From NCBI GenBank assembly GCA_021324775.1, contig JAJPIM010000026.1, positions 62,001 through 126,000 of the forward strand: a stretch of DNA of 64,000 bases, written 5' to 3'. This stretch comes from Gemmatimonadota bacterium. GTDB taxonomy: Bacteria > Gemmatimonadota > Gemmatimonadetes > Gemmatimonadales > Gemmatimonadaceae. Both the position numbers and the translations under genes were made by a program. Below, piece after piece: positions 54,581 through 56,193 of the stretch. Numbering within the stretch: the stretch's first letter is position 1; each line of letters begins with the position of its first letter. Under the pieces are notes generated by a model. It had not been told where the DNA came from. It saw only the letters and a list, made by a program, of their open reading frames with translations, and searched no databases.

Positions 54581-55999
54581 ATGGGCTGCTACCGGATGTC
54601 TTCAGTTCTCATCGTCGATGACGAGCCGTCGATCACACAGACCCTCGGGTCGTTCTTCGAGCGGTCCGGCGGACACGTAGTCACCTCCGCGCACAGCGGA
54701 GAAGAAGGCGTCGCGCTCTTTCAGCGCATGCATCCCGATCTCGTTCTGCTCGATGTCCGTCTGCCGGACATGACCGGGTTCGACGTGCTCGGCAGGCTTC
54801 GCGGCAACGATCCCGTCGTGATCATGATGACGGCGTTCGGCGACGTGCCCCAGGCTGTCCAGGCGATGCAGAGCGGTGCCGAGAACTTCCTCACCAAGCC
54901 GATCGAGCTGACACATCTCGAGGCCGTGGCGGAGCGGGCCTTCGAGAAGGCCCGCCTCCGGCAGATGAATCGGTACCTCACGACGCGGCATGGACACGGC
55001 GAGGGGCAGTTCGTGCTCGGGACCTCCCGTCCGATGCAGGAAATCGCGGCCCAGATCGACATGCTCGCGGCGAGCGACCGCACCACCGTGCTCCTCATCG
55101 GTGAAAGCGGAGCGGGGAAGGGGCGCGTGGCGGAGATGATCCATGCTCGGAGCCCGCGCGCGGCGATGCCATTCGTCGAAGTGAACTGCGCTGCGCTGAC
55201 CGCCGGCTCGCTGGATGCGGAGTTGTTCGGCCAGGAGGGCGCCCAGCCGGACGCGAACAAAGGAAACGGATCCACTCCGGCCGGCGCAGCCAGCGGGGAC
55301 GGCATGCAGGCCAGCGGGGTGTTCAAACCCGGGCTGCTCGAAGTCGCGAACGGCGGGTCCGTGTTCCTCGACGAGATCGGCGACCTGGCTGCGCACCTGC
55401 AGCCGAAGCTGCTCCGGGTACTCGAGGGCAAAGCCTTCCGGCGAGTCGGCGGGACGCAGGAGATCTCCGCGAACGTCCGCCTGATCGCGGCGACCGGTAA
55501 GGATCTCGTCAACGAAGTCACGGCCGGGACGTTCCGCGAGGATCTCTACTACCGGCTCAACGTGATGCCCGTGTATCTGCCTCCCCTCCGCGCCCGCGCG
55601 CGGGAGGACCTGCTGGAGCTCATTGCCCACGTGATCGGCGAGCTGCGGCCCAGCCTCGCCGATGCGCCGGCGGCGGTGAGCGAAGCCGCGCTCGAGCGGA
55701 TGCTGCGGTATTCGTGGCCGGGCAATATCCGCGAGCTGCGGAATGTGCTCGAGCGGGCGATGATCATGTCGCGCGGGCAAGCGAGCATTGGACCCGAGCA
55801 TCTTCCGGGTGACGTCCGGGACGTGGCAGGCAGCGGGCCCGGTGTGGGGCATCACGTCCCCAAGTCGCTCGACGAAGTGGAGCGGACCCACATCGAACGC
55901 ACGCTCCGCGCGCACACCGGCAACCGGACCCACACGGCGCGCGAGCTCGGGATTTCGCGAGCCACCCTCATCAAGAAGATCAAGGCGTACGGGTTGTGA
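54581..55999 (+). CDS. NtrC-like response regulator lacking the sigma-54 GAFTGA loop
   Basis: This 472-residue protein has a good receiver (VDDEPS at 12-17, Asp58, Lys106 in TKPIEL), an AAA+ domain with Walker A IGESGAGKG (173-181) and Walker B VFLDEIGDL, and a Fis-type HTH (HTARELGISRATLIKKIK). Where GAFTGA should be, between ELFG (214-217) and KPG (249-251), there is a 31-residue Gly/Ala/Ser/Asn-rich insert. The protein therefore cannot contact sigma-54 in the usual way and may repress or activate sigma-70 promoters, like TyrR-type relatives. ATG 54596 (MSSVLIVDD) is an equally good start. The stop overlaps the zinc-protein GTG. Confidence 0.9.
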   Translation: MGCYRMSSVLIVDDEPSITQTLGSFFERSGGHVVTSAHSGEEGVALFQRMHPDLVLLDVRLPDMTGFDVLGRLRGNDPVVIMMTAFGDVPQAVQAMQSGAENFLTKPIELTHLEAVAERAFEKARLRQMNRYLTTRHGHGEGQFVLGTSRPMQEIAAQIDMLAASDRTTVLLIGESGAGKGRVAEMIHARSPRAAMPFVEVNCAALTAGSLDAELFGQEGAQPDANKGNGSTPAGAASGDGMQASGVFKPGLLEVANGGSVFLDEIGDLAAHLQPKLLRVLEGKAFRRVGGTQEISANVRLIAATGKDLVNEVTAGTFREDLYYRLNVMPVYLPPLRARAREDLLELIAHVIGELRPSLADAPAAVSEAALERMLRYSWPGNIRELRNVLERAMIMSRGQASIGPEHLPGDVRDVAGSGPGVGHHVPKSLDEVERTHIERTLRAHTGNRTHTARELGISRATLIKKIKAYGL

Positions 56000-56193
56000 A
56001 CCAGCCGGCGGCCGGTCCTCCTCCGGAACACGACGTGATGGTATGCCGGTGGTGCGGCCGCGAAGGGCGCGCATCGGAAGGCTATCCCTGCCGGGGCTGC
56101 GGAACGTACCTGTGCCTGATCTGCACATTTCGAGGCCATGAGTACTGTCTGGGATGCGAGCAGACCGGAACCGTCGAGCCCACCCAGGCCTGA
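55996..56193 (+). CDS. Small eight-cysteine zinc-finger-like protein
   Basis: This 65-residue protein starts at a GTG that overlaps the regulator stop (GTGA). It contains four CxxC pairs: Cys17/20, 32/35, 40/43 and 51/54, with His48. The spacing C-x2-C-x11-C-x2-C-x4-C-x2-C-x7-C-x2-C suggests two interleaved (cross-brace) zinc sites, resembling RING/FYVE-type fingers in layout, though no homology is claimed. The N-terminal 15 residues are Pro-rich. The tight coupling suggests it works with, or is a metal/redox sensor for, the GAFTGA-less regulator. Confidence 0.75.
   Translation: MNQPAAGPPPEHDVMVCRWCGREGRASEGYPCRGCGTYLCLICTFRGHEYCLGCEQTGTVEPTQA

Follow-up and report, generated by a model that had tools for sequence, protein, structure and literature searches.

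NtrC-type response regulators of one orthologous clade from a single order of soil bacteria, represented in the 64,000-nucleotide stretch of Gemmatimonadota DNA analysed here (the window), have, as their sequences show, repeatedly lost the sigma-54 contact loop while keeping their DNA-reading part almost unchanged. In the explanation that we favour, and that we hold to be reasonably probable as a whole, a sigma-54 activator has become a sigma-54-independent DNA-binding regulator, and the eight-cysteine mini-protein encoded beside it belongs to the TAM (tamA-tamB-yegS) locus, as an adaptor with structural zinc. Comparative sequence evidence and precedent argue for the conversion of the regulator; the role proposed for the mini-protein draws on gene context and a fold prediction.

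The two genes correspond to open reading frames of 472 codons (54581-55999) and 65 codons (55996-56193) on the forward strand, which overlap in the sequence GTGA. These positions and the fusion had been correctly noted in an earlier sequence-only reading of this DNA, except that the regulator probably does not start at 54581: its homologues start at the second ATG, at 54596, and the protein is thus probably 467 residues long (Table 1). Pfam recognises in it a receiver, a Sigma54_activat domain, an AAA lid and a Fis-type helix-turn-helix (HTH), which is the domain set of group I enhancer-binding proteins, and the ATPase elements of that group are in place, with the R-finger region (FREDLYYRL) and sensor II (GNIRELRN) intact in addition to both Walker motifs. 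The view that receiver, Walker A/B and Fis HTH have been kept is thereby confirmed. A PADLOC match of the regulator to RtcR was rejected, as it spans just the common AAA+/HTH part.

Table 1. Features of the regulator, the mini-protein and the surrounding locus (positions in the window)
Feature	Position	Strand	Basis or remark
tamA-like Omp85 outer-membrane protein (start uncertain)	46504..48933	+	Pfam Omp85, POTRA; first gene of the conserved run
tamB	48958..53535	+	Pfam TamB, E 2.4e-32; precedes the mini-protein in most loci
YegS/DAGK-family lipid kinase	53536..54555	+	Pfam DAGK_cat, YegS_C; abuts tamB directly
NtrC-type response regulator without GAFTGA	54596..55999	+	ORF opens at 54581; homologue starts map to 54596
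Receiver domain of the regulator, phosphoacceptor D/T/K intact	54602..54946	+	Pfam, motif reading
Walker A of the regulator, GESGAGKG	55100..55123	+	Motif reading, intact
30-residue disordered stretch GAQPDANKGNGSTPAGAASGDGMQASGVFK in place of the GAFTGA (L1) loop	55238..55327	+	Between ELFGQE and PGLLEVA
Walker B of the regulator, VFLDEIG	55361..55381	+	Motif reading, intact
Fis-type HTH, best conserved region of the regulator	55886..55996	+	Motifs, alignment; RATLIxKI in 99/100 orthologues
Eight-cysteine mini-protein, 65 aa, GTG start overlapping the regulator stop	55996..56193	+	ORF; AlphaFold2 pLDDT 82.7
Four CxxC pairs of the mini-protein, spacing 11-4-7 (CxxC-x11-CxxC-x4-CxxC-x7-CxxC)	56044..56157	+	Motif scoring
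HAD hydrolase, conserved downstream neighbour	56271..56987	+	Pfam; cluster 1 of neighbour clustering

What the window regulator lacks is the GAFTGA (L1) loop through which group I enhancer-binding proteins contact sigma-54. Normal members have about 12 residues, GAFTGA included, between the ELFGQE and PGLLEVA positions, and the window regulator has 30. The AlphaFold2 model of the regulator, built with 47 orthologues, has a mean pLDDT of 90.5 and is confident everywhere except in the linkers and in this stretch, where the pLDDT is about 50. The sequence-only reading had described a 31-residue Gly/Ala/Ser-rich insert in place of the contact loop, and this replacement is confirmed. That reading was likewise right in taking another regulator of the window, near 4348, as an ordinary one for comparison, since that protein (at about 4.4 kb) has GAFTGA, and the genome from which the window derives encodes ordinary GAFTGA regulators too. 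The same genome also contains a non-orthologous regulator (L007, G000:C31:74829-76154) whose loop has degenerated to GSIPGV and whose other motifs are normal.

For comparison, 100 orthologues were gathered from loci found via the mini-protein and via the regulator itself. None of them has GAFTGA: in 37 the loop is GAFTDA-like, in 13 it bears further substitutions at its normal length, and 50 have lost it, the compared stretch in this last group being 17 to 40 residues long as against 21. The absence of GAFTGA from the same-genus and all other orthologues rules out a local deletion or an assembly error as its cause; close relatives with an intact loop, which would have spoken against the sequence-only reading, were not found. 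Conservation among the orthologues is lowest in the loop (median pairwise identity 0.33, compared with 0.57 in paralogues) and highest in the HTH (0.76, compared with 0.35). Walker B is lost in 14 of the 100 and the receiver phosphorylation residues (D/K) in 11, and some motif losses could be assembly errors, most homologues coming from environmental assemblies.

When the loop columns are excluded from tree building, all orthologues fall into a single clade next to paralogues with GAFTDA, a motif that is carried by these outgroup proteins and by the basal orthologue L222. Loop loss takes seven changes on this tree (six of them forced by well-supported branches), loss of Walker B six and loss of the receiver site four, counts that are soft because the tree was made by a quick method from mostly environmental assemblies. 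Since many orthologues retain a GAFTDA loop of normal length, the loss was gradual as well as repeated. The clade thus offers a natural graded series, from GAFTDA through a substituted loop and no loop to members without Walker B or without the phosphorylation site, all with a constant DNA-reading helix, and this series makes it testable what role is left to the AAA+ domain and the receiver once the sigma-54 contact is gone. A remnant regulator, L304 (G134:C20), lies between tamB and an NlpC/P60 gene; its receiver and loop are gone, its Walker A and B motifs are degenerate, and its Fis HTH is still recognisable.

RpoN is encoded in all 21 relatives considered, the window's genome included, which rules out that the organism has lost sigma-54 and implies that it is the regulator that has changed. 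There are precedents for such a change. TyrR, HupR, VpsR and the NtrC proteins of Rhodobacter capsulatus and Caulobacter resemble the window regulator in that they combine AAA+ and Fis HTH (most of them also a receiver) with a loop that is deleted or altered, although RpoN is present in the organism. TyrR, DhaR and HupR, whose loops are defective, reportedly depend on sigma-70, and the case has been made that VpsR is no sigma-54 activator (PMC3162934); the two NtrC proteins, in which the loop is absent, act at sigma-70 promoters (PMC10274813). The window clade differs from this group in that the loop was lost several times within a single orthologous clade, via GAFTDA, in that some branches have shed ATPase and phosphorylation motifs as well, and in that the window regulator is fixed beside a zinc-type mini-protein in a TAM locus. 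The one-residue variant GAFTDA of the outgroup and about one third of the orthologues is also found in Desulfovibrio DVU2106 and Dickeya VfmH, from which the window regulator differs in having no loop motif at all. GAFTDA has been listed, for Desulfovibrio, among the variants expected to retain sigma-54 activation (PMC4641369), so that clade members with GAFTDA may still work through sigma-54; in the case of VfmH, sigma-54 was not pulled down and the effect of the loop change was left open (PMC10714721).

A search of upstream sequence found no sigma-54 promoter above chance, the single weak match not being kept within the same genus. A dyad search over 39 loci gave no conserved operator, as the repeats found lay in coding sequence where they could be placed. 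In the mechanism that we propose, the ancestor would have been a sigma-54 activator with a GAFTDA loop. Receiver phosphorylation, where retained, would control oligomerisation of the present regulator on DNA, and the regulator would activate or repress a sigma-70-type promoter by contact or occlusion rather than by ATP-driven remodelling of sigma-54. It should be noted that Walker A/B and the R-finger have survived in most members, which argues against this last step, as ATP binding or hydrolysis may still matter.

The mini-protein was described from the sequence as a 65-residue protein with four CxxC pairs in a cross-brace-like spacing, and this description holds. The 11-4-7 spacing was found in 92 of the 96 loci scored (two of these loci being without a readable mini-protein), and in the core DxMxCRxCxxxxRASEGYPCxxCGTFxCxxCxxxGxxxCxxC, whose median identity is near 0.73, 19 columns are invariant across 49 sequences; pN/pS is about 0.33. 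By protein search it is present in 141 of 298 genomes of the phylum, a single weak match outside the order probably being spurious. The codon pattern of ERASEGYPC occurs in 163 of 395 phylum genomes, far above chance, the matches listed all belonging to three families within the window's order; the backward-read control has no match in the table. In the genome collection, the best 80 named loci, behind which come 118 more matches, are all from Gemmatimonadota. No known family scored above the cut-off in Pfam or NCBIfam, and PHROGs, PADLOC and a search for plasmid matches gave none. The C1/DC1 family (PF03107) was rejected, with 13.9 bits for the window protein against a curated cut-off of 26 and an E-value of 9.6e-5 for the best of the 49 members.

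The nearest structural neighbours of the predicted model include PHD, C1, FYVE, RING and ZZ domains, and none is significant in the structural libraries (all Foldseek E-values 1e-3 or higher; VIA Z not above 3.5). With eight putative ligands in four pairs at a conserved, C1/FYVE-like spacing, the mini-protein shows the ligand pattern of a cross-brace binuclear zinc domain; it differs from the known ones in being a stand-alone bacterial protein of some 60 residues, with a unique RASEGYPC block and no significant match in sequence or fold. Nearly invariant cysteines in a compact fold, here predicted to be a cross-brace, are the usual mark of structural zinc, and the protein is probably zinc-binding. 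We regard it as a new family, confined to one order, with a predicted cross-brace double zinc fold. In rare mini-proteins (L137, L136), at loci without a regulator, a single cysteine or the initial CxxC pair is missing, unless these sequences are mis-assembled.

The gene order tamA-tamB-yegS-[GAF/PAS sensor kinase]-regulator-mini-protein-...-HAD is conserved, in line with the idea of an outer-membrane biogenesis cluster, and the ancestral unit probably also had the kinase. Its content varies between lineages, from kinase and mini-protein without regulator (G101, G143) to regulator and mini-protein without kinase, as in the window; elsewhere in the window's genome, a search for a cognate kinase gave partial matches, all to the catalytic half. 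Whether regulator and mini-protein are always adjacent, as had been asked, depends on the direction of counting. A regulator-based search, which scored the top ten candidates of each genome and hence undercounted orthologues, gave at least 80 places in 79 genomes; after removal of a paralogue and of a place at a contig end, 78 regulators could be compared with mini-protein coordinates. A mini-protein follows within 300 nt in 76 of these 78, so that it is not absent beside most homologues; the exceptions are G056, with a well-conserved regulator and no mini-protein found, and G013, with both genes unlinked. Conversely, at 77 mini-protein loci the regulator lies within 250 nt in 50, farther away in two, and is missing in 25, and tamB or yegS is upstream of the mini-protein in 22 of these 25. 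The pairing is thus real but one-sided: sensor kinase and regulator are optional in the TAM locus, and the mini-protein, which mostly still lies behind tamB/yegS where the regulator is missing, belongs to that locus as its more stable resident.

Our preferred explanation follows this asymmetry, in that the mini-protein would be a cytoplasmic structural-zinc protein of the TAM locus, co-translated with the regulator where there is one and working without it elsewhere, and its most likely role would be that of a small protein-protein adaptor acting in the envelope-lipid/TAM pathway; against this, genomes such as those of genus g4 carry tamB without the mini-protein. We think it unlikely that the mini-protein is a dedicated partner which binds the AAA+ or the HTH part or, as the TraR/DksA zinc finger does, RNA polymerase, in replacement of the sigma-54 contact. 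The near-constant presence of the mini-protein behind the regulator, their GTGA overlap or short gap, and the occurrence of the regulator stripped of receiver and Walker motifs (L304) in a genome without mini-protein all speak for such a partnership, but the 25 regulator-less loci, the well-conserved lone regulator of G056 and the unlinked pair of G013 speak against it. The C-terminal half of the mini-protein, with CxxC...GVTLCxxC, does resemble the C4 finger of TraR/DksA, but at a non-significant E-value of 0.2, and the protein has two extra CxxC pairs and, in the model, neither a long N-terminal helix nor a coiled coil. The specific version in which the mini-protein, as co-regulator, contacts the polymerase in place of the missing loop, in a two-part regulator of outer-membrane assembly, seems decidedly improbable to us; if true, a former sigma-54 ATPase and a zinc mini-protein would make up a new type of two-part transcription regulator.

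The suggestion in the sequence-only reading of a metal- or redox-responsive module, in which the mini-protein would sense metal or redox state and modulate the regulator, fares worse, and we give it little credence. It could draw on the eight cysteines and on co-translation with a regulator for which no cognate kinase turned up in the window's genome, but nothing supports sensing specifically, structural zinc explains the cysteines at least as well, and the mini-protein is retained where there is no regulator to modulate. That the regulator is a slowly dying gene of no selected function, held in place by its operon, would account for the recurrent loss of loop, ATPase and phosphorylation motifs and for its complete absence from about one third of the mini-protein loci; the high HTH identity relative to the paralogues, and a reading frame that is open in nearly all members, make this very improbable indeed. 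With the mini-protein, an undescribed and highly conserved family is linked to TAM, the machine of the outer membrane and of lipid transport, in a phylum that has hardly been studied. Searches of the literature for TamB gave no relevant result.

Some loci depart from the common arrangement. In genus g4 (L301-L303), tamB is followed by a GAF/PAS kinase and then by an NlpC or P1-type peptidase gene, with neither regulator nor mini-protein. The kinase beside the mini-protein in L311 (G101) and L312 (G143) ends in a receiver domain of its own, as seen by Pfam in the former and by sequence match in the latter. In genus g3, L094 (G010) and L078 (G136) are second mini-protein copies away from tamB, and that of L094 lies, as judged by eye, between DPP4-type-peptidase-like and carboxypeptidase-like genes.
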